The notes under the pieces: generated by a model
What the model was told of the DNA's origin: nothing
The model's database searches: none
What the model saw: only the letters and a program-made list of their open reading frames with translations
Program-made: the position numbers and the translations under genes
Shown here: one piece after another, positions 4,864 to 33,732 of the stretch
Layout of the letters: each line of letters opens with the position of its first letter
Numbering within the stretch: position 1 is the first letter of the stretch
NCBI RefSeq assembly: GCF_905475395.1
Contig: NC_058342.1
Location: 37,566,640-37,630,639 of the forward strand
Source of the DNA: Chrysoperla carnea
Lineage: Eukaryota; Arthropoda; Insecta; Neuroptera; Chrysopidae
Length of the DNA: 64,000 nucleotides
Reading direction: 5' to 3'

Positions 4864-7800
4864 ATGGCACTACAAAAGTCATTACGTGTATTAGAAAAGA
4901 ATAATGCACCAAACCCATTCAGTGTAATCTTACTGGATCGTAAACAAACATCGAAATTATTATTTGAATCGGGTGTTGTAGCAGTTTTATGTAAGTACCG
5001 AGCTAGGCACTTCATACATTTTAATTTAACGTTCCAAACTTCACTTAAACTGTCAAAATTAGTATTTAGTAGATTTCATTTACTGTAGAGTGGCCATAAA
5101 CCGAGATAATCGGTAGTTACCACGAAATATTATCTACCGAGAATTACATGAAAATCAGAGAAATCTAACTTGTAGCCTAAAAGCTTCTAAACAATGATTT
5201 TTATCCAAATCCGTGAATGTTTTCTGATTTGTTTTTATTTTATAGCGACTTCTGAATACGATCAAGTTAAGAAGAATTATACAAAAGTTGTTGACGCATA
5301 TGCTTGTCTGGGTGTCTTACAGATCAATTCTGGTGATAACTGTAATCAGTATTTAGTGGTAGTGATTGGATGTGTGTCTGTGGGCAAGATTGGCGACACT
5401 GAAATCTTTAAAATAACACAAACACAATTAGTGGCCTTGCAATATGAAAGTACTCAAGAGGAACGCATATCAGAGGTACTGCATGCTGAAAATACAGTGA
5501 ATAAGGCTGAAAAAATGGGCCGACCTTTTTATTCACTGTACTATTACTAAATAGTTTTATTTGATTAGATTCTTTTGTTTGATTAGATACGCAAGTTTCT
5601 AAATTCGGGTACATTCTATTTTGGATACGGTGGAAATCCTTCATGTCCAATCAGTCATGTAGATGTGACTTTATGTGCTCAACGTCGATACAAGACGAAC
5701 GTTAGCGACCACCGTTTTTTTTGGAATCGTATGCTACATGTGTTATTCATACGGTTTGGCATCAACACCGATCAATGGCTGATCAAATCGATGTGCGGAT
5801 CGATTGAAATACGTACTGTGTACGTGGGACATCGTCAAGCACGTGCAGCTTTGTTTTCACGTCTAAGTTGTGAGCGTGCTGGCACCAGGTTTAATGTGCG
5901 TGGCACCAACGACGATGGACACGTTGCTAACTTTGTGGAAACTGAACAGGCTATTTATTTAGATGAGAGTGTCACTTCGTTCGTGCAAACACGTGGCAGT
6001 ATACCTTTGTTTTGGGAACAAACTGGCGTTCAAGTTGGCGCTCACAAAATAAAACTATCACGTGGTTATGAAGCGTCTAAAGTGGCCTATGACAAACATC
6101 TGACATTGTTACGACAACGTTATGGATTCTTAGCTATTATTAACTTACTTAGTAATACAGCTGGCAACGCTAAGAACGATGGAGAAGCTGCCTTAAGTGC
6201 TGAATTCCAGGTAAATAAACATCTGGTTGTTATCAAAATTAATATAACTACAACTAGCTGTTTGTGACAGAGTTCAATTGAGTTGAATTTGAATGATTTG
6301 ATTTGATTTAGAGACATCATGAAGAGTCTGCGCACACAAACATTCCACATATATTATTTGATTATCATGCAGAATGTCGCAACAACATCAACAATCTTGA
6401 TAAGTTAAAAGCAAAAGTCAACCGATATCCAGAACTGTCAACATTCTTTACTATGCATAAAGGAGCTAATGTTGTAAGGTAATACCATACACTGAAAAAC
6501 AAAATTTAAATAATCACCAGCTCATCCCGAAGTTGGCCGTTTCATATTAAAATCAATTTAATTAATTACTTGTTTATTTTATTTACAGTGAACAATTAGG
6601 TACAATTAGAACGAATTGTTTGGATTGTTTGGATCGTACAAACTGTGTTCAAATGTACTTAGGTTTATCTGTAAGTCTGTTTTTAATATCAATCGATAAT
6701 AACACACAAACACATACACATATTTACAGGGTGTCCTCTTAACTATTATTTTTGGGAACATAAAACTGCCCATAATTCCTTAACTATTGGGTTTTGGACA
6801 AAAGTATATAAGACACTTTTGAATTAAAATTGTCCAAGAAATACGCTCTTAAAGTTTGAGTATCAAATGACGGGACACCCTGTATATATATATTTTTTAA
6901 GCTTGATTGAACTAAACCCAAATGTGTGTGTGTTTGTTTTGATGTTGAATCAAATAAATAAACAGTGAATTGATTTGTTTGTTGAGCAGGTTCTTGAGCA
7001 ACAAGTGTTGCTTGTATTAAATTCATCAACTGATAAACTAGATGCGATGGTGGAACGTTTTAATGAGATCTTCAAACAGATGTGGTCTGTTAATGGTAAT
7101 GAAATTAGTAAAATATATGCAGGCACTGGAGCTATACAAGGCAGTTCAAAGCTTATTGATGGAGCACGCTCAGCGGCTAGAACCATTCAAAACAATCTCT
7201 TGGACAATGCCAAACAAGAGGCCATCGATGTTTTATTGTTTGGTTCTACACTTAATTGTGAATTGGCTGATAGATCAAGAACATTGTTACCATCATACAT
7301 GTTACATGGTTAGTATTTAAGTTTGTTTTTAAAAAGGAAAGGTGTCGTGGTACACCCGGTTGGAACTATGTTCCTATATTATAAATGAAGCTCCTACTTT
7401 TTTACAGAGTACAGAATACTGTGATGTATATATATTAATTTGTTGTTCTTTTTAATTTTAAAGCACCTACTCCTGTATTACGTGAAATGTGTAAACGATA
7501 TAGAGAGTATACAAGACCACAACGATTACGGGTTGGTTGCGGCACCTACAACGTCAACGGTGGCAAACAATTTAAAAGTCTAGTTTTTAAAGACATCTCA
7601 CTAGCTGACTGGTTACTGCAACCATTTGGGGCCGATGAAGAAGGTATGCTAATGCTATGTTCACACTAATCATACAGATAATACCATAGAGCTAGCTTTA
7701 TAAACATAGGAAACACAATAAGTCAATTATTTATTGATTTTAATCGAATTCAATTGAATTAGGTCATCCATTGGCGGCTGAGTCTGATCTAAATGATATA

Positions 7801-9985
7801 TACGCTTTAGGATTCGAAGAAATTGTTGATTTATCAGCAGGAAATATTGTTTCAGCTAGGTAATACAAATATTGATTAATATGTTGATGATAGAACTTGA
7901 TTTACTTTATTTATTGATATGATTTTAGTTCAGAAAATGCCCGTCAATGGGGTGAAGAAATAGAAAAAGTATTATCAAACATTGGTAAATATGTTCTGAT
8001 ATCATCCCAACAATTAGTTGGCGTCTGTTTATTTTTGTACGCTAAAGAACAATTGATTCCACACATCAAAGATTTGGCTATTGATTGTGTCAAAACTGGT
8101 TTAGGTGGTGCAACAGGTACGTACATCTTATCTTATGTAATAAATCTTTGTCCTGATCCTTGGTCCACCTGATATATATCTTTCGTGTGAGAATATATGA
8201 TAAAATCTGAAATCAATATAAAAATCAATTGATAACTTAGCCTCAACTTAACGAATATTTGCTTGTTCCCTTCCGATTCGTTATATCGAGGTTGCACTGT
8301 AATCTATTCTATTCTGTTCAGGTAATAAAGGTGCGGTTGCAATTAGATTTGTATTGCATGGCACGTCGATGTGCTTTGTGTGTGCACATTTTGCTGCTGG
8401 ACAATCACAAGTGAATGAACGTAACGCAGACTTTGCTGAAATCACACGTAAAGTTGCATTTCCAATGAATCGAACGTTAAACTCACATGATATAATATTC
8501 TTTTGTGGAGACTTCAATTATCGCATTGACATCGAACGAAACCAGCTCAAAGAGATGATTAAAAATGAACAATTTGAAGAGATCTTAAAAGAAGATCAAT
8601 TAAAAGTACGCTCGCTAACCTACTAATCATAATAATCATAATAATCATTATAATTTTTGTTTTTATTTGATTTTAGAAACAATATGCTTTAGGCCATGTC
8701 TTTCGTAATTACATTGAAGGACCAATCAATTTCGCACCCACCTACAAATACGATTTGTTTTCTGATGATTACGATACATCTGAAAAAGCACGAGCACCAG
8801 CTTGGACTGATCGTGTCTTGTGGCGAAGACGTGTTGATCCAGGTAACTTAGACTTACGTTACAAGTAGTACATACTATTTATTATTTAGTTAGTTTATTT
8901 TTAACTGAGTCAATTGTTTGTTTTATAGATTCAGATGGAAGTTCAAGTTCAGTAGTTGGGGAATGTGTATACTACGGTCGTACAGAGCTTAAACAAAGCG
9001 ATCATCGACCTGTGTTTGCAGTCATTGATATTGACATCAATGTGATCGACGCAGAACAACGTTTACAAGTCTATTATCAAGTGTTACAATATTTAGGACC
9101 GCCAGATGGAACCATTTGTATTAAATGTCCAGATGTGGAGGAATACGATGCAAGCTTTGTTAACAACATACTGACGGAACTGTCAAACATTGGGCAAGTG
9201 ATCATGGTACGATTTGATGGGGATACCATGTGGGCAACATTCTACGATCCACAATGTTGTTTGTCTGCTGTTAAACGTCAAATTATACAAGTCAATGGTT
9301 ACGATTTACATATTTCATTACGATCACCGAATTGGGTGCAAGAAGCTGAAAAGGAGATTGCGTTATGTACAAATAATACTGTTTCAATGAGATTAAATGG
9401 TACGTATGTTGTGACATCACTACTAAAGATTACTGAACGATTGACGTGAGTGCTGACGGGTTAAAAGTGTTGAATTATTATTTTACAGAAGGATCACCAG
9501 TGTTGGTCGCAACACCCAAGTCTAGTCCAATGCCAAGTCCACATAGACCGCCACCATTAAGGCCACCAAAGCCATCACCAACTTCAAACTGTTCACCATC
9601 GAAATCAGCATCCGATAGTACACCAACAACACAATACAACGAACAACAACAACAACAACAACAATTTATTTCAAATGAAAGAGAGATGTCAATAGATAGG
9701 CCTGAACCAAATTTTACACCTCCATCATTACCACCACCTAATTTTAAAGCACCTGTAAATACTAACACACATACACAATCACAATCAATGGTAAGTAACA
9801 ATGGTGGAGGTGGAGGTGCACCTCCTCCTATACCAGCTAGAACAACAAAACCACCACCATTACCAGCACGTACTCAACAAGCACCTCCACCACCACTAGG
9901 ACCAGCACCTTCATTAACACCTACATCTTCACCTTCAACACCAACAGGAACAGGAACACTTACACCAACATCTAATAATAAATAA
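4864..9985 (+). CDS. Synj: Synaptojanin (Sac1 plus inositol polyphosphate 5-phosphatase), 13 exons, 1143 aa
   Basis: Phosphoinositide phosphatase that strips phosphates from PI(4,5)P2 during clathrin uncoating and synaptic vesicle recycling. Exons: 4864-4990, 5246-5475, 5587-6210, 6312-6478, 6589-6670, 6990-7308, 7464-7643, 7763-7859, 7929-8116, 8322-8605, 8677-8842, 8929-9399, 9489-9985; all have GT..AG borders and one open frame. The Sac domain (about 1-510) has the CX5R catalytic loop CLDCLDR at 393-399 inside [12 protein letters not shown]. The 5-phosphatase (about 538-855) shows GTYNVNGG (543-550), FFCGDFNYR (731-739), PAWTDRVLW (807-815) and SDHRPV (845-850). An RRM-like domain follows (about 860-975), then a proline-rich tail (about 980-1143) with PPPLPAR-type SH3 ligands. 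The start is supported by an in-frame TAA at 4852-4854. Neuronal vertebrate synaptojanins have a longer tail. Several introns carry repeat scraps. Confidence 0.96.
6490..6560 (+). repeat. fam-15 scrap in synaptojanin intron 4
   Basis: The words ACACTGAAAAA and GAAGTTGGCCGTTTC, then ATTAAAATCAA, recur at 61196-61240 and, inverted, at 58582-58640. It lies wholly inside the intron between exons 4 and 5. Confidence 0.5.
6726..6883. mobile_element. fam-2-like MITE in synaptojanin intron 5
   Basis: Terminal inverted repeats ACAGGGTGTCC (6726-6736) and GGACACCCTGT (6873-6883) are perfect over 11 bases. The 158-bp element has no ORF of note and fills much of the 319-bp intron 5. The ends resemble the larger foldback at 16069-16445. 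Confidence 0.75.
7336..7375 (+). repeat. Dispersed repeat scrap in synaptojanin intron 6
   Basis: The words AGGTGTCGTGG, ACACCCGGTTGGA and CTATGTTCCTAT recur, inverted, at about 14708-14752 and 63180-63225 (GGAACATAG, GGGTG, CCACGATAC). The family's ends are not visible. Confidence 0.45.
7676..7727 (+). repeat. fam-1 scrap in synaptojanin intron 7
   Basis: It begins with the fam-1 end GATAATACCATAGAG and continues with ACATAGGAAAC and CAATAAGT, both found in order at 43410-43612. The rest of the element is missing. Confidence 0.6.
8230..8299 (+). repeat. fam-4 scrap in synaptojanin intron 9
   Basis: It ends with TATATCGAGGTTGCACTG, the fam-4 right terminus, and contains TTAACGAATATTTGCT, similar to the interior of the copy at 46505-46900. 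It stops only about 20 bases before the exon 10 acceptor (AG at 8320-8321). Confidence 0.6.
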
Positions 9986-15778: not shown

Positions 15779-16068
15779 ATACATAGTCTTATTAATTATT
15801 AAAAGCTTTACGTTCACTGAATTTACGTTAAAATGTTGACACGCATTAGCATTACATTACAATCAAATACAATATTTAAATAAAGCAATCAATTAATTAA
15901 TCTTTATTTGATTTTAATTATTTATGTTATGATGATAATGATAATGATAATGATATAAATAATAAAATAGCTAATAATTAAACTGAAGAACGTTCAGTCA
16001 ATGAAAATTCAATGAAAACATTTTTGGCATTACCATTTATTGGTTGGTATCATAATATGATCATCATT

Positions 16069-16445
16069 TATACAGAGTGTTCTGTTATTGATAACAGATA
16101 ATTATACCAGTAAATTAAGCTTATTAAGACAAATGGAAAAGCTATTTACCCAATTTCGATCTAAGGCCTGATTCGGGAGATGTGATTATGGGAAAAATAG
16201 AAAGATTTGTGAATTCACAGACCTATCAAACTCATTAAATTTGTAGGTATCACTTTAGAATATAGAGATGATCCTACTAATTTAATGATAGGTCTATGAA
16301 TGCACAAATCTTTCTATTTTTCTTATAGTCACATTTCCCGAATTAGGCCTCAGATGGAAATTTGGTTCATAGCTTTTCCATTTGTCTTGATAAGCTTAAT
16401 TTACTGGTGCAATTTTCTGATATCAAGAACAGAACACTCTGTATA
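16069..16445. mobile_element. Long foldback MITE (fam-2), 377 bp, arms of about 175 bp
   Basis: Left TATACAGAGTGTTCTGTT pairs with right AACAGAACACTCTGTATA perfectly. Pairing continues inward: TAAATTAAGCTTATTAAGAC with TTGATAAGCTTAATTTA, AATGGAAAAGCTAT with ATAGCTTTTCCATT, and GGCCTGATTCGGGA with CCCGAATTAGGCC. Nearly the whole element can fold into one hairpin. Non-coding. Confidence 0.85.
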
Positions 16446-16637
16446 TATTATTTATTATTTATCATAATCTAATTTGTGTGTTTATTTAATTAAATTTATT
16501 TAATTAATATTAATATAACGTAAACGTACTATGTATGAATAGGCTAGCTAATATTTAAAATTTAATATTATTTTTGATTTTAATTTGCGTTCTGTTCTCA
16601 TTCAATTCAATTTAAAAAGGCTGCTGATTAGTTAGGT

Positions 16638-16995: not shown

Positions 16996-19900
16996 TTACC
17001 AAAATCCACCAGATGATTTACCTCCTGGAGGATTCTTAACACGTATACAAGAACGACGGTCATCAGCATCTGGATCTTCTGTAAAAAACAAATCAAAATA
17101 TATATTTGTTTCAAAGACTTAGCTAGGTAATCCAAGGCCCTAAACAAAAGTGCAAAAAAAGGCCCCCTTCGGAGAACGGCACCGTTTAGCACTTCAGTAG
17201 CTACGCCACTGATTTGTTATAGCTTAAATACCTGAAACTTACCACTACTGATTGAAAATGATGAGCTTTGTAAATTTCTTTGGCCTTCTTGTCTCGGTGC
17301 TTTCCCAATTGGTGTGCTCACACTTGAGTTGGGTAAAGTTGGCATATTATAAATAACTTCTTCTTGTGCGTTTGGTCCATTACCATTGTTAATATTTAAG
17401 TGATCCAATGTCAATTCATTTTCGTAGCTGTGCAAACGTTTTTTCTCAACAGCAGCAATATCATCATCCGTGCCATAAACGTACGGAGCAAATGGTAATG
17501 TTGGAAGAAAACGTCCATAGCCTTGTACAGCTTTTAATTCGCCTTCGTCGACACAAACACGACCATTCACTATTACGTACTCTGGTGCGCCGTGACAAAC
17601 TAATCCCTCGAATATGTTAAAATCAATTGCATGATGATGTGTTTTTGCCGATATTGTTTTCGTTTGATTTGGGTCCCAAACAATTATGTCGGCATCGGAT
17701 CCAACAGCTATGCAACCTTTTTGAGGGTATAAATTAAATAATTTTGCTGCATTTGTACTGGTGATGGCCACAAATCTAGATGGATCCATGATGCCATTTA
17801 CAACGCCTTTTTCCCATACAACGTACAAACGATCTTCAACACCATTCACACCATTTGGTATTTTTGAAAAGTCATTTTTACCAGCTGCCTTCTGTTCAGC
17901 CGTAAATGTACAGTTATCACTTCCAGTTAAGTGCAGTTTATCCCTAAATACAATATTCCAATTTAGTACTTAACGTAATAAACAAACTTTCATAGCTATA
18001 TTTTTTATAGAAAGCATACGTGGATGCGGAGACACGATGCAAATGTCTCTTGATCTTTCCTGACTTGCGTATCATATGAATTTTTCTTTATAGTATATAA
18101 AATACAATGGATCCGTTCGAAGATATTGACGCCCATGTGGTAACAATAATAAGGTCCCCTTTTTGCTACAAATTACCTATTTCTGGTGAAGAAGTTCACT
18201 GCAGGTAAATTCTAGCTTAATAAATAAATTGAATTGAAGTAAATAAGATTGATACTGGATACGACCCCGATAAAAAGCAAATCAAAATAACAAACATAAA
18301 GCATAATTTGATTTGATTTGATTTGATGAGTGTGTATTGTGTAGTTTAGTATGCAGTTTGTAGCTTGCAACAGTGTAGAGTCAAAACTATGGAGGGCAGA
18401 GATAAGGAGAGTTAGTTCCTATGTGTCCTTGTCATAGTCATATGTCATAACCATATGATGCATAGAGATTTTGTGTCTGCCACTATTATATTTGTTTTAT
18501 ACAAAGAGGTTATATACAGCTATTGAAATAAATACCACAAAACACTTGAAATAAAACCCTTCCATTTCATTTCCTGCTTTTCAGTGGACACTTTTTATAT
18601 ACTGACATGATTTTCCTTATCTCTCTCCATAGTCAAAACTTACACAAACAGCTATCATTATAGGTTTTTGTATGATAATCAACCAACTAATAAGCTATAA
18701 ACATTTACTTAATTATCCACATTTTATTAGTATTTAGTTCTTAAGTACCATACCATGATACTAAATACTAAGTAATTTTAACTTTTTTTATTTACAATTT
18801 TATATGAAAGACAGACTTTAATAAATTTTAAATTTAAAGCTGAACTGTACTTAATTTATATAATCAATTGCAAGCTAAGTAATGCTATGCAATATGCACC
18901 AACCCAGCCCAACTCAACCCATCTTACTTAATATTAGTAGTTAATTATGTACACATACACACACGAACTACACTTTACAGTATAGTACAGTTTGTTTTTA
19001 ATAAAGTACTCTTCTGTTGTTTATTTTCTAATCGATATCTACTTTAAAAGAGTCCAGTCCCATCCAGAGTCAAGATATTGATAGCGTGCCATACAATCTT
19101 GTTTAAGGTATGATTCCGATACTGTCCTCTGTGCGCTGTGTCCTCTGCTGACACAATGCGCACTGCTGATACATACCTGACTATTTCTTCTGAAGTGTCA
19201 GTTGTACATATGTATGTGTTGTTGCGTCAGCGTCAGTATTGCTCTGAGAGAGATATAGCCGCAAGGCTTTCCAAGCTTACTCACTTAAGTATACTCACTT
19301 AAGCGTCTGACGTAGTGCGACAGCCACAGCATAGGAATCATATCTTTAAAATCGTATTGGTTCTGGATTGGTTTTTTTTAGAAGGAATTAAAAAATAAAC
19401 ATCAGAATTAGTGCTAATCTGTTAAGTAAATATGAATTATTAGGTAGTTAGTTAGTTAGTTAGTAACTTACGAAGAACTGATGAAATTCATCAAGTATTC
19501 TGGAGTTGTTGGATCAGAACGTATTGGAGGTACTGTGCAACACCTCACATCGTTCTTATTGCCTACCAGTGCTAGAGAACAAGCAAGCACTTCTCCATAC
19601 ACTGGATATCCATCAGTATGTGTGTTATTCTCACAATGCGTTGATATCACATCCGCCCCATTCTTACTACTCACGTGGGCTATGTATAATGGACTGTTTA
19701 CCTATTATTTATTATTGATTTATTATTCACTTCAAATTTAAACAAACTAAAATTCATTAATTAATTAGTTATTCATTAATTATTTTCTTATTTGTTTGCA
19801 AGCAATCTGTCATTGAATTTGTTTGCAATATCAATTATATAATAATGATAGCTACCTACACTAACATTATACAATAGTTTATATAATTATTAGTATTATC

Positions 19901-22900
19901 ATTAACTGTACGTTGCAATAGCACGTATCACGTAGTACTTAGTACGTTGAACGTAGATGTTGTGTAATTGAATAAAAAATCTGAACACATTTTAGTAGGT
20001 ACATAAAATATATTTAAAAATAAATGTAAAGAGCACTCACTCAAAAACAAAAAAACAAATGCAACAAAACAAAACAAAACAAGACTAAAAAAACATAAGT
20101 AGTGTTACTTAAATGTAGTAAAGTATATTAAGTAAAGTTAGATAAAAACAAAGAAACAAAACAAAATGATTTAAAAAACAGAATAAATAAACAACAAAAT
20201 AAATTTAAAAACAAAACATAATTATTAAAAGACCTCAGTACCAACATGATTTTATTGAGCCATCACATTTCATCCATCTCAACTTAATTCGACTGAATTG
20301 AATTGAATTGAATTAAATCGAGAATGAATTAAATCATTCATAATTATTATCAAATGAATATGAATGAAATGGAAGTTTGTTAGTAAAAAATAAAACTAAA
20401 ATCAAATAAAAATGTAAAAAATGGACAAAGAACAAAATGTAAACGTACTCAGCTAAATAGTGCATAAGAATGTTGGGCGTTTCTTTATTTGGTCGTAGCG
20501 GTGGACTTAAAATGTGTCTGGCTGCATGGTACCAATCAGCGTGGTAGTAATGTGACCCATCCGTACCCAACGCAGCTGCTAAAGTTTCTCCAATTATTTT
20601 CAATTCGCTATTGTTTATTTTAAATTGGTTTAGGGCTTGCGCTGCACTTTGACTCATTACGTGAACTACATACAACGGACTCTCCACCTAAATCCATCCA
20701 TCCAAAAAGAACCAAAAAGAAACCAATTCAAAACAAAACAAAACAAAAAATGATAATAAATAAAATAAAATAAAATAAATCAAAGAGTAGTAGTAGCAGT
20801 AATAAATAGTAGATGGCAGTACTACCTACATAGTAAATAAATAAGAGAATCAAATCAGTTCAGTCAGTTCCTAATATCTATCACAGTCTCATCAAATAGA
20901 AATAGAATCATTAGTCTAGTACCTAAATCACAAGTAAATGATTCAATTCAATCACTGATCAATACAATAATACCTAGTGCTAACAATAAACACACACCTG
21001 CTTAGCAATAACACAAGCACGATTCACTGCTTCAGCTTCAACTTCTTCATTGCGTGACAGTTCGTGACCATGAGGACCAGTCACACCTTTCGCTAATAAC
21101 TTCTTAGTGTTTTCAGTGATCACATCACCGTTTTCAGCATGAACCATCGTAAGTGCTCCAATTGACTTGCAAGTATCCATTAATTGATAGATTTCTGAGT
21201 CGCGCAGTGCAAAGTTGTAAGCCATAAATAGTTTGTATGAATTGATACCATGTTTGGCAGTTAATTCTTTGATTTCATTTTTTTGTCGTTCACCCCATGA
21301 AGTGACGCACACATGCAATGCATAATCACAACATACTTTAGGATCAGCTTTTTCACGATAACGCATATAAGCTTCTAAGAGTGTTTCATCTGATCGTGGC
21401 ATCACAAAATCAACTGTTGAGAACAATAAATGAATAAATTAATTAAAACTTAATGAATTGCTATTAGAATTAGTGAGTAGTAGATAACTTGAATAAAATG
21501 TAATGTACTTACTTATGGTAGTGGTTCCACCAGCTATAGCAGCTTTAGTTCCTTGATAAAAATCATCAGCCGTTACAGAGCCCATGAATTCCATTTCAAA
21601 ATGGGTATGTGGATCAATGCCACCAGGCATTATTAATTTACCTCGAGCATCAATCACTCGTGTCCCTCCTGGTATTATTAAGTTCCTACCTAATTGTTTA
21701 ATAACACCTTCCTCAATATAAATGTCACCTTCAGCAATTCCATCTTCGTTCACGATACGTCCATTCTTGATAAGTAATCGATTTTGAGCACTCTGTTGGA
21801 TTCAAACAGAACAATTCAAATCAAAACCATTTATTTTTATAGTCGAAGTCAATAATAATCTGAGATATTATAGGGTCTAGGCATATGGCTCTAATGGGTT
21901 ACTAGAAATAGTTTAATTTAGTATATTATATGGAAAAATCGGGTTCATTTTACATTTAGACGCCTCTCTGTAATTGTTTATAATTACCACGTGTAAAAAT
22001 GAGCTTATAGATTAATAACCTTGTTTGTTTTTTGCCGCTCCTTGAATTTGACACTGGGCATAGTTCTATTTTTTTCAGCTAGGTGGATTCCTAATTTGAC
22101 GCTCAAAGCTAGCGTCAAGCGTCATCATGAAGTTACATCTTTAGAGTTAGTTACTGCATATAGTGACTAGTGACACTAGCTCCAATATAATATCCAATAA
22201 CTGTAGAATATAGAATGTAGTCACTGTTTGTTTTATTAATTAAATAATTTATTTAATTATTTATATTTTCAACGCATGTATTATACATAATTTTTTTTTT
22301 TTTGTAAATAATATCATCAATTTAATAAATTATTAAAAAATTAATTAATTAATAGATGGGATGATCATCAGAGTTTCAAATATATGCATATATAGTGTTA
22401 CTTGTATTTATATCCACTTATAACAATTTTCAACAGTCCTCTCCGCTGTGCTAAACGAAGTTGCCGTTTTCCGCCTTCGTCGAGCAAAAAAATAGTACAC
22501 ACGCCATGAGAGCAAGTAAAAGATTACTCGGATTGCATGTTCATTGTTGCCCGAAGCGAAATCGAGGGTGACAAAAAAAAAAAGAAAGCGACACTTTCAT
22601 TTATCTCAGCGGGGTAAAAGACATCTTCCAACCGGATGGTAGAAAATTTTTGAAAAAGAATATCTTGTAATTCCTCGAATTACAGATCAAAGTGGTAATA
22701 TTTCAATCATTTTCTAATCTCAGCCACAAATAATTAATCTAATTATAATAAATCTGCATTGTAAGTACTGTTATAGTTATGTCGGATTAAAAGGGGTGCC
22801 CGATTAGACGGGGACTGAATTACCACGGGTCTACTGTATACTAGCATATTTTCTCAAAGGAAAAACAGAAAGTTGGAAATTTTTAGGTAGCTACAAATAG

Positions 22901-23618
22901 TGAGTCTATTGATTCCAATTTTCATATACGTACCAAAAACCTACGAAAAAATTCCTAGAAAAATTTTCGGGGAAAAATCGTCATCATTTTATCGCAGTGA
23001 ATCTTTTTATTTTTTTAAACTTATTTTATTTATTATAATAATACATGCACTGATATTCGACACTGTCTATATAAAATATTTCAACAATTAACTTAGGCAA
23101 TTGTTGTTACTTTTTCAAAAATTTCGTTTTTGAGTTATAAAAAATATCAAAGAAAAATTCATTGAAAAAAAAATTAATAATCATTTATCAATCAGCGTTT
23201 AAAATTTTTATTCAACAGCTCAAAACATTAAGGGAAAACTTATTAAGGATTAGGGTATACGAAATACAGAGAAAAATTAATTAGCCGCCGTACTATATTG
23301 TATTTGTATGCGTATAGTACAGTACAGTATACGAGCGACATGACATACGGTATACGTACACATTAATATGGATGATATACCGGCTTCTTTTCATTGGATC
23401 AATATTTGAACTAAAAATAACAATGTTCACATGCACATTGATATTTTTATAAAATAAAATAAAATATACTAACACTAATACTAATACTCTTAACAGAGAT
23501 ACAGATTAGGTAGTTTAGGTGCTGAATACTGAATACTAAATACTAAATTATGATAATTATTATCAAAACTCACTTGTAAATGAATTGGTACTTTTTTAAC
23601 GTGTGATGTAGTCGTCAT
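16996..23618 (-). CDS. CRMP: Dihydropyrimidinase / collapsin response mediator protein, alternative exon 4A or 4B, 587 or 584 aa
   Basis: Cyclic amidohydrolase of the DHP/CRMP family; in Drosophila one gene makes the pyrimidine-catabolic enzyme and the neuronal CRMP by alternative splicing. Exons in transcript order: 23618-23574, 21792-21513, 21413-20998, then 20687-20449 (4A) or 19701-19472 (4B), 17943-17243, 17078-16996. All have GT..AG borders and one frame. Zinc ligands of the family are present: H77 and H79 (PHTHF), K169 (NSYKLFMAY, the carboxylated lysine), H200 (VHAENGD), H256 at the start of exon 4A or 4B, and D336 (GSDNCTF; D333 with 4B). Vertebrate CRMPs have lost several of these, so the enzyme function is probably kept. 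The C-terminus ends [11 protein letters not shown]. An in-frame TAA (23643-23645) precedes the ATG. Confidence 0.95.
18387..18632. mobile_element. fam-11 MITE in the CRMP intron between exons 4B and 5
   Basis: Left ACTATGGAGGGCAGAGATAA and right CCTTATCTCTCTCCATAGT form an imperfect terminal inverted repeat. A shorter relative lies at 41472-41628, sharing the TGGACACTTTTT word. The rest of this 1528-base intron (17944-19471) is AT-rich without visible genes. Confidence 0.7.
19443..19466 (-). promoter_or_regulatory. ACTAAC array just inside the intron after exon 4B (candidate STAR-protein splicing element)
   Basis: On the transcript strand, four overlapping ACTAAC motifs follow the exon 4B donor: GTAAGTTACTAAC at the splice site, then further ACTAAC units. 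ACUAAC is the core bound by STAR-family RNA-binding proteins (quaking; Held-out-wings in flies). Position and copy number suggest a role in exon 4B choice; this is inference, since a plain TTAG microsatellite would look the same. Confidence 0.45.
19472..19701 (-). CDS. CRMP: CRMP alternative exon 4B (CRMP-type)
   Basis: 230 nt encoding 76 codons plus two bases. The acceptor is AATAG before GTA, the donor a perfect GTAAGT. It opens with [16 protein letters not shown], homologous to [16 protein letters not shown] of exon 4A, then diverges ([36 protein letters not shown]) and lacks the GTDGSHYY substrate-side segment. It starts in phase 0 and leaves two bases (TC), exactly as 4A does, so it can replace 4A. 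Using both or neither shifts the reading frame. Confidence 0.9.
20449..20687 (-). CDS. CRMP: CRMP alternative exon 4A (dihydropyrimidinase-type)
   Basis: 239 nt encoding 79 codons plus two bases. The acceptor is TTTAG before GTG, the donor GTACGT. The peptide contains [30 protein letters not shown] and [10 protein letters not shown], words that match vertebrate dihydropyrimidinase closely (LGTDGTHYW, HHAAHH, PPLRPDPSTP). The exon begins in phase 0 and leaves two bases (GA), completed by the first base of exon 5 to make Glu327. I infer that it makes the enzyme form. Confidence 0.93.
21793..23573 (-). other. CRMP intron 1, 1781 bases
   Basis: It holds a fam-10-related piece at 22036-22145 (CATAGTTCTATTTTTTTCAG, TTTGACGCTCAAAG, CGTCATCATGAAG) and a less AT-rich segment at 22430-22840 that ends CGGGTCTACTGTATA, resembling a Tigger-type right terminus without a visible left partner. 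No coding exon was recognised. Confidence 0.55.
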
Positions 23619-32406: not shown

Positions 32407-33732
32407 ATGAGAGGCTCAATAAAGATGTGTGTGTTAGTGATGATTGGAGCTGCAATCATCTTTTATCAGTCACATTTATCAAATACTTTAGTTGTACGAA
32501 TTGAGGTAAGTTTTAAATATTTATCTTAGAACCAGTAACAGTACATACACTCTACAGTACTTAACTACTTATCTATTGGATTGTAATGCTATCTAGCGAC
32601 AGTAAAACGAACTATAGGTGTGAGCTCTCAAAGATATATAATATTTAACGGACATGTTGTATACATTCTTGTATAAAAGTAAACACTTTGTTGTAGACAA
32701 ATCAAGAACTACCAAATGCAAAAGAAGAAATGTTTGTTGATGGCAATGGAATAGGAGTAGCAGCAGTAGGTGCAGGGAACTCAGGAGCAGTAGGAATATT
32801 AAATATAAACAGTAACAGTCATAGTCAGTTAGCACTACCACCCTTGTACATAATTACACCAACATACTATCGTGCTGAACAGTTACCAGAGTTGACTCGG
32901 CTGTCACACACTTTAATGTTGGTACCAAATGTGCACTGGTTGGTGATTGAAGATGCGCATACCAAGTCACCGCTGGTCGGTGAATTGTTGGAGCGAACCA
33001 GTTTAAAGTTTTCACATTTGGTGGCACCTATGCCAGACAAATATAAAAAGCGTAAAGTGAAACCTCGTGGTGTTTCAAATCGTAATCGTGGCTTACAATG
33101 GATCCGGGAACATGCTACTAACGGTGTTTTTTATTTTGCTGATGATGATAACACATATGATTTACGATTATTTGAACAGGTACGTCTCTTAATATTTCAA
33201 TTCAATTTAAATAAAATACTAACAGTTTTATTTTATTTAGATGCGTTTTACTAAAAAAGTATCGATGTGGCCAGTTGGATTAATCACCAAGTTAGGTGTG
33301 AGCTCACCAATAGTACGTAATGGTACATTTGATGGGTTTTATGATGGCTGGATTGCTGGTAGAAAGTTTCCTGTCGATATGGCTGGTTTTGCAGTATCAG
33401 TTAAGTTCCTGTTAGAACGGCCCAATGCAACGATGCCCTTCAAACCTGGATTTGAAGAAGATGGTTTTTTACGTAGTTTAGCACCATTTGAACCAAAGGA
33501 TATTGAATTGTTAGCATCAAATTGTACAAAGGTAATTTATTTTTATTATTTTTGAATAAATACATTTTATTTGAAGACATTTAAGGCACGTATTTAAAAT
33601 TTACATAATATTTAATATTTACAGGTGTTAGTGTGGCATACACAAACCAAAAAAAATGAACGGTCTCAACCATTAGACATGGTGAAGTATGGTACAACAA
33701 ACTTAGTTGATTTAAAAAAAGTGATCTTTTAG
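32407..33732 (+). CDS. GlcAT-I: Beta-1,3-glucuronyltransferase, GlcAT-I/B3GAT3 type, 4 exons, 326 aa
   Basis: Golgi type II membrane glycosyltransferase (family GT43) that adds glucuronic acid to Gal-Gal-Xyl and completes the glycosaminoglycan linker tetrasaccharide. Exons: 32407-32505, 32697-33179, 33241-33531, 33625-33732, all phase 0 with GT..AG borders. Residues 7-22 form the signal anchor (MCVLVMIGAAIIFY); 34-80 is a stem. The catalytic domain shows IITPTYYRAEQLPELTRLS, the metal-binding DDD at 182-184 (YFADDDNTYD), WPVGL, RKFPVDMAGFAV, the acidic FEED segment (probable base E267) and LVWHTQT near the end. FPVDMAGFAV and ERPNA resemble B3GAT3 more than the B3GAT1/2 (GlcAT-P/S) branch. 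Two NXT sites (NGT, NAT) and NCT are present. The ATG follows an in-frame TAA at 32395-32397. Confidence 0.93.

Follow-up and report, generated by a model that had tools for sequence, protein, structure and literature searches.

Two alternative fourth exons in a probable dihydropyrimidinase/CRMP gene of the lacewing Chrysoperla carnea

A stretch of 64,000 nt from contig NC_058342.1 of Chrysoperla carnea (the window) holds on its minus strand a gene that probably belongs to the dihydropyrimidinase (DHP)/CRMP family, and that offers two fourth exons, 4A and 4B, between exons 3 and 5. The question raised by this locus is whether the exchange of one exon could yield both a metabolic enzyme and a neuronal protein, and which parts of the metal site such an exchange would touch. 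In its insect sense, CRMP designates the neuronal, non-enzymatic product given by an alternative exon in the DHP gene. According to Morris et al. 2012 (Genetics 191: 1227), the Drosophila melanogaster CRMP gene reportedly yields DHP and CRMP by alternative splicing. The initial annotation had relied on this fly precedent, which is indeed in print: the exon switch of fly CRMP, with a change from His to Gly at the zinc-binding residue numbered 192, is described in an excerpt of PMC7954323, and an excerpt of PMC3650022 names fly dihydropyrimidinase as the product of CRMP. Among the open-licence papers surveyed, as represented by excerpts, the DHP/CRMP exon switch is described only in PMC7954323, for the fly; the excerpts of PMC3650022, PMC3645671, PMC7325199, PMC4051505, PMC3385985, PMC7916958 and PMC1414087 carry no description of it.

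We consider it highly probable that the lacewing locus is one DHP/CRMP gene whose duplicated exon 4 is spliced in a mutually exclusive manner, 4A leading to dihydropyrimidinase and 4B to a CRMP-type protein. This resembles the fly CRMP gene as described in the excerpt of PMC7954323, with one gene, a mutually exclusive exon and the same two products, and extends to another genome the fly-type arrangement, in which a single exon swap decides between an enzyme of metabolism and a protein of neurons.

Gene structure and reading frame

Seven exons were placed from the sequence on the minus strand, from 23618 to 16996 (coding parts only at both ends), and all introns of the gene have GT-AG ends. The exons and the residues discussed below are as follows.

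23574..23618, minus strand: exon 1, coding part, 45 nt; ATG, then donor CAA|gtgagt
21513..21792, minus strand: exon 2, 280 nt; HTH with zinc ligands H77 and H79 (splice borders, PDB alignment)
20998..21413, minus strand: exon 3, 416 nt; K169 (position of the carboxylated lysine), Y174 and H200 (splice borders, PDB alignment)
20449..20687, minus strand: exon 4A, 239 nt; dihydropyrimidinase-type, H256 (borders, similarity, loop, ligand)
19472..19701, minus strand: exon 4B, 230 nt; CRMP-type alternative, H256 and PP-x-R kept, GTDGSHYY...W loop lacking (borders, similarity, ligand)
17243..17943, minus strand: exon 5, 701 nt; zinc-ligand Asp (D336 with 4A, D333 with 4B) and start of the C-terminal tail (splice borders, PDB alignment)
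16996..17078, minus strand: exon 6, coding part; end of the CRMP-like tail and stop TAA (CRMP2 alignment)

The initial annotation had placed 4A at 20449-20687 and 4B at 19472-19701, which is exactly where they lie, with GT-AG borders on both (4A: ...ttag|GTGGAGAGT...TTTAGCTGA|gtacgt; 4B: ...atag|GTAAACAGT...CAGTTCTTC|gtaagt).

Since exons 1 to 3 total 741 nt (45+280+416), exon 4 begins in phase 0, and both versions, as had been proposed, start in that phase and leave two bases over, 239 and 230 both being 2 mod 3. The further proposal that inclusion of both or neither would break the frame of exon 5 is borne out in a sharper form than claimed. When exon 3 was joined to exon 5 in the four possible ways, the frame stayed open only with 4A alone (587 aa) or 4B alone (584 aa), while joining 4A to 4B ends the frame at codon 328, directly past the 4A/4B junction codon, and skipping both ends it at codon 249, the second codon past exon 3. 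The open frame of exon 4 by itself is weak evidence, because stretches without a stop, as long as 70 codons, also occur in its introns. Anatomically, the two exons are homologous, adjacent, of the same phase and not joinable, as in a mutually exclusive pair.

Because transcripts with both exons or with neither stop at once, they should undergo nonsense-mediated decay, and exclusivity would be achieved at least partly through the reading frame, the wrong forms being removed in this way. The same early stops, well upstream of the later junctions, would also suit a gene that joins 4A and 4B in one transcript, or one in which exon choice acts mainly as an off-switch through decay. We give hardly any credence to this alternative, since a pure off-switch would have no use for the full frame that each exon alone provides (587 or 584 codons). 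Mutually exclusive use of the two exons is the reading we retain.

Origin of the two exons and number of loci

Both 4A and 4B open with the V-x-S-P-L-Y-x-x-H-V segment reported in the initial annotation, and their translations are identical at 23 of 70 aligned positions. The global protein score of the pair is 97, whereas 2000 shuffles of 4B average 10.2 and never exceed 43. Searched alone against the PDB, each exon retrieves dihydropyrimidinases (4A at 2.8e-21, 4B at 2.2e-8); a Pfam search with each exon-4 piece alone returned no family. On this sequence comparison, 4A and 4B are confirmed as two versions of one duplicated exon. The DNA score, 97 vs at most 88 among 500 shuffles, is a modest excess, and a similarity so little above that of shuffled sequences indicates that the duplication of exon 4 is probably old. 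No branching order is drawn from a seven-sequence tree of the exon-4 segment, whose key nodes have supports of 0.64-0.76.

This modest DNA similarity, as well as the acceptor of 4B, which has the lowest pyrimidine share of the six in the gene (0.32 over positions -25 to -4), would fit the idea that 4B is a decaying relic of the duplication, no longer spliced. It is, however, very unlikely: 4B is fully open, has GT-AG borders, a gtaagt donor and the right phase at both ends, keeps the zinc-ligand His along with its dihydropyrimidinase match at 2.2e-8, and a switch of this kind exists in the fly gene according to the excerpt of PMC7954323.

Concerning the number of loci, the 4B-form protein was compared with the 559-Mb genome in six frames and gave, among the best candidates scored, 11 matches, namely five exons of this locus with at least 47.9 bits and six elsewhere with at most 28.2 bits. 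With 4A as query, the whole genome yielded among the best candidates scored only 4A itself and 4B, the latter at 22 bits. Neither a third copy of exon 4, nor a retrocopy, nor a second DHP/CRMP locus was found genome-wide among the best candidates scored, and no relatives were found for 4B among viral contigs or for a 4A-form fragment among genome contigs. The case for one DHP/CRMP locus in this genome is strong, if not absolute. Pfam Amidohydro_1 has 10 matches genome-wide, two within this locus and eight elsewhere; for four of these eight the best NCBIfam match is guanine deaminase (two), allantoinase or dihydroorotase, all four being fragments that score under the whole-protein cut-offs.

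The neighbouring steps of the pathway were also located. Dihydropyrimidine dehydrogenase (DPYD), found via Pfam PF14691, matches the PDB enzyme with 448.6 bits over 338 residues, and beta-ureidopropionase, found via PF00795, has CG3027-PA as its top PDB chain and two chains named beta-ureidopropionase as the next ones. With the steps before and after it present, a dihydropyrimidinase is expected in this genome, and the only source of it that was found is the DHP/CRMP locus.

Metal ligands and assignment of the two forms

As reference we used structure 2vr2, human dihydropyrimidinase, with its six zinc-ligand positions (H, H, carboxylated K, H, H, D). Aligned to it, both predicted proteins have all six positions filled, by H77, H79, K169, H200, H256 and D336 (D333 in the 4B form), which upholds the earlier claim that the 4B form keeps every zinc ligand. 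Also present in both forms is Y174, the Tyr near the carboxylated lysine, and the 4B form retains the PP-x-R arginine. Of the six ligands, five lie in exons common to both forms, so exon choice could touch only H256, which 4B keeps. The residue that corresponds to human His192 lies in exon 3, common to both forms as well. Six of six ligands speak for possible metal binding by the 4B form, as had been proposed. A switched exon thus need not take away a metal ligand: the fly switch, by the description in the excerpt of PMC7954323, changes a zinc His to Gly, whereas the lacewing switched exon has its one ligand His in 4A and in 4B, a contrast that may reflect either lineage or residue numbering. 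While the exon-switch arrangement is already known from the fly, the zinc ligand kept in the switched exon is an additional point.

Both predicted proteins pass the cut-off of the NCBIfam dihydropyrimidinase model TIGR02033 (393.25 bits), the 4A form with 564.9 and the 4B form with 535.6 bits. Scored against 2vr2, exon 4A reaches 78.5 bits vs 36.7 for 4B, and among structures the 4A form matches 2vr2 best (621 bits). The stretch GTDGSHYY...W...HAARH...PPLRPN is kept in 4A; the alignment of 4B shows a seven-residue gap at that loop and about five extra residues earlier. 4B retains VNSPLYI, VYGE and DPTTPEYLM, and beyond the loop it is in places nearer to 2vr2 than 4A is (VNxPLYI, VYGE, DPxTPxxLMN). 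Of 41 columns invariant in three DHPs, 4A keeps 29 and 4B 22, compared with 32 in vertebrate CRMP2 and 31 in DPYSL3. As overall conservation does not single out 4A, what speaks for it as the enzyme is the loop together with total similarity. These two features, the DHP-like loop and the higher match to human DHP (78.5 vs 36.7 bits), side with the initial annotation, and 4A is quite likely the enzyme form. Its inclusion would give dihydropyrimidinase, which catalyses the second step in the reductive breakdown of pyrimidines. We infer that 4B replaces the substrate-side segment, and its inclusion would give a CRMP-type protein as from the fly gene.

An alternative is that each isoform is an active hydrolase that depends on metal, the two differing in substrate or rate, with 4B retuning the pocket and leaving catalysis in place. 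The 4B form does keep the six zinc ligands, Y174 and the PP-x-R arginine, its exon keeps VNSPLYI, VYGE and DPTTPEYLM, and 535.6 bits is its score to the dihydropyrimidinase model. Nevertheless, we judge this alternative improbable, given that 4B is short by about seven residues at a loop found in all five proteins compared (three DHPs, two vertebrate CRMPs), and that the fly alternative product is termed CRMP, and not an enzyme, in the title of Morris et al. 2012. The assignment of 4A to the enzyme and of 4B to a CRMP-type product is preferred here.

The comparison with vertebrate proteins shows in which sense 4B could be called CRMP. At the six ligand places CRMP2 (7u5k) has H, R, L, H, K and A, hence two of six kept, and two of six is also what CRMP-4 keeps according to an excerpt of PMC4051505. 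In the vertebrate sense, in which most zinc ligands are lost, the 4B form with its six ligands does not match CRMP on this point; in the insect sense, its anatomy as an alternative exon in a DHP gene does fit. The two are mirror images: CRMP2 has two of six ligands and keeps the GTDGSHYW loop, whereas 4B keeps its ligand and lacks the loop. Vertebrate CRMPs (the DPYSL family) are moreover separate genes, whereas the CRMP-type form here is an alternative exon.

Like vertebrate dihydropyrimidinase (2vr2), the 4A form has the same six zinc-ligand residues and the GTDG-HY loop; unlike it, the lacewing protein is two residues shorter in the segment after Y174, and both predicted forms add a CRMP2-like C-terminal tail. 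The alignment of the 4A form with 2vr2 ends at residue 484, and that with CRMP2 (7u5k) spans residues 17-582, including the end ...RNL...SFS-S...RR...R...PPGGK. The tail of the gene thus aligns, as in vertebrate CRMPs, with that of CRMP2 through PPGGK. A CRMP-type C-terminal tail is encoded by exons 5 and 6, which are common to both isoforms, and the enzyme form would therefore carry it too.

It seems doubtful that the 4B isoform is an enzyme with its full metal complement and a remodelled pocket. Were it so, insect and vertebrate CRMPs would be convergent, vertebrates having lost the metal and kept the loop and the lacewing lineage the reverse, and the neuronal role of CRMP would not need a dead active site. 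Two questions become testable. One is whether the CRMP of insects is a metal-binding protein, perhaps even with enzyme activity; the other is whether CRMPs came about along separate paths, through gene copies in vertebrates and exon copies in insects.

Splice signals around exons 4A and 4B

Several known routes to exclusivity were considered. Spacing too short for joint splicing is ruled out by the 747 nt between 4A and 4B, and a U2/U12 mismatch by donors that read GT, with no U12-type motif seen by eye. Competing intron pairing of the docking-site kind gave no convincing signal: the best pair, intron 3-4A with intron 4B-5, has -126.6 kcal/mol vs a mean of -117.4 in 60 shuffles (sd 4.4, minimum -130.3), only about 2 sd away, and the other two intron pairs are within about 1 sd of their shuffles (60 each). 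Rbfox-type GCATG sites are absent (0) from the three introns around 4A and 4B.

When the six donors of the gene were scored with a position table, those of 4A and 4B were the two weakest, with 2.12 and 4.57 vs 7.67-9.53 for the others. The acceptor of 4A is not weak, its pyrimidine run of 9 nt being the longest among the six acceptors. As donors are weak at both exons, a cell-type factor probably decides between 4A and 4B, and the two forms would then be split between tissues. One group of motifs lies beside 4A:

20044..20748, minus strand (transcribed strand): five TTTTGTTTT tracts (eight overlapping matches by motif count), one before and four after 4A

The introns flanking 4A hold 8 of the 16 TTTTGTTTT matches of the whole 64,000-nt window, both strands counted, and the 3 + 5 seen compare with 0.10 + 0.43 expected from 300 dinucleotide shuffles per intron in the two introns. 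These tracts could be candidate sites of a splicing regulator, though the evidence is weak, and growth of a simple repeat would explain the excess equally well. Proteins of the ELAV, Sxl or Bruno type bind such U-rich motifs.

In the fly nervous system, an excerpt of PMC3385985 lists CRMP among candidate splicing targets of TBPH (TDP-43); the table gives a splice index of 0.646 vs control and 0.612 in the rescue comparison, with no clean rescue. A moth brain proteome table, in an excerpt of PMC7916958, contains an entry 'Dihydropyrimidinase isoform X2' with Bombyx mori as reference, a label that says nothing on exon 4 and hints at annotated isoforms in another order.

Segments shared by both isoforms

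17363-16996 (-), CRMP2-like C-terminal tail (alignment with CRMP2)
21219-21199 (-), YNFALRD segment starting at Y174, exon 3 (structure alignment)

The C-terminal tail of the DHP/CRMP gene product is common to the 4A and 4B isoforms, and the tail of CRMP2, a vertebrate CRMP, can be aligned to it as far as PPGGK; hence, judging from sequence, the predicted enzyme form would carry a CRMP tail as well. Read by eye, the tail also displays a T-P with S at -4 and T at -8, an arrangement that resembles the CDK5/GSK3 sites of CRMP2. Exon 3 is likewise common to both isoforms, and its YNFALRD segment, which would belong to a substrate gate loop, is two residues shorter than the corresponding segment in 2vr2 (vertebrate dihydropyrimidinase), 4h00 and CRMP2.

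Tracts and repeats in and around the gene

20044-20748 (-), TTTTGTTTT tract cluster on both sides of exon 4A (motif count)
16063-16451, inverted repeat just 3' of the DHP/CRMP stop codon
26795-27347, simple-repeat array of about 550 bp upstream of the gene

The cluster beside exon 4A holds 8 of the 16 TTTTGTTTT matches in the window. The inverted repeat (arms of 166 nt, 88% complementarity, 57 nt between arms) looks like a fold-back element, and the array has several open frames on both strands, which would encode for example proline/histidine/leucine or glycine repeats.

Neighbouring genes

5587-9985 (+), Synaptojanin-like gene, on the other strand from the DHP/CRMP gene (domain matches)
32697-33251 (+), glycosyltransferase family 43 exon (domain match, 122.7 bits)

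The former is Synaptojanin-like, a name taken from its Syja_N (170 bits) and DUF1866 (120 bits) matches.
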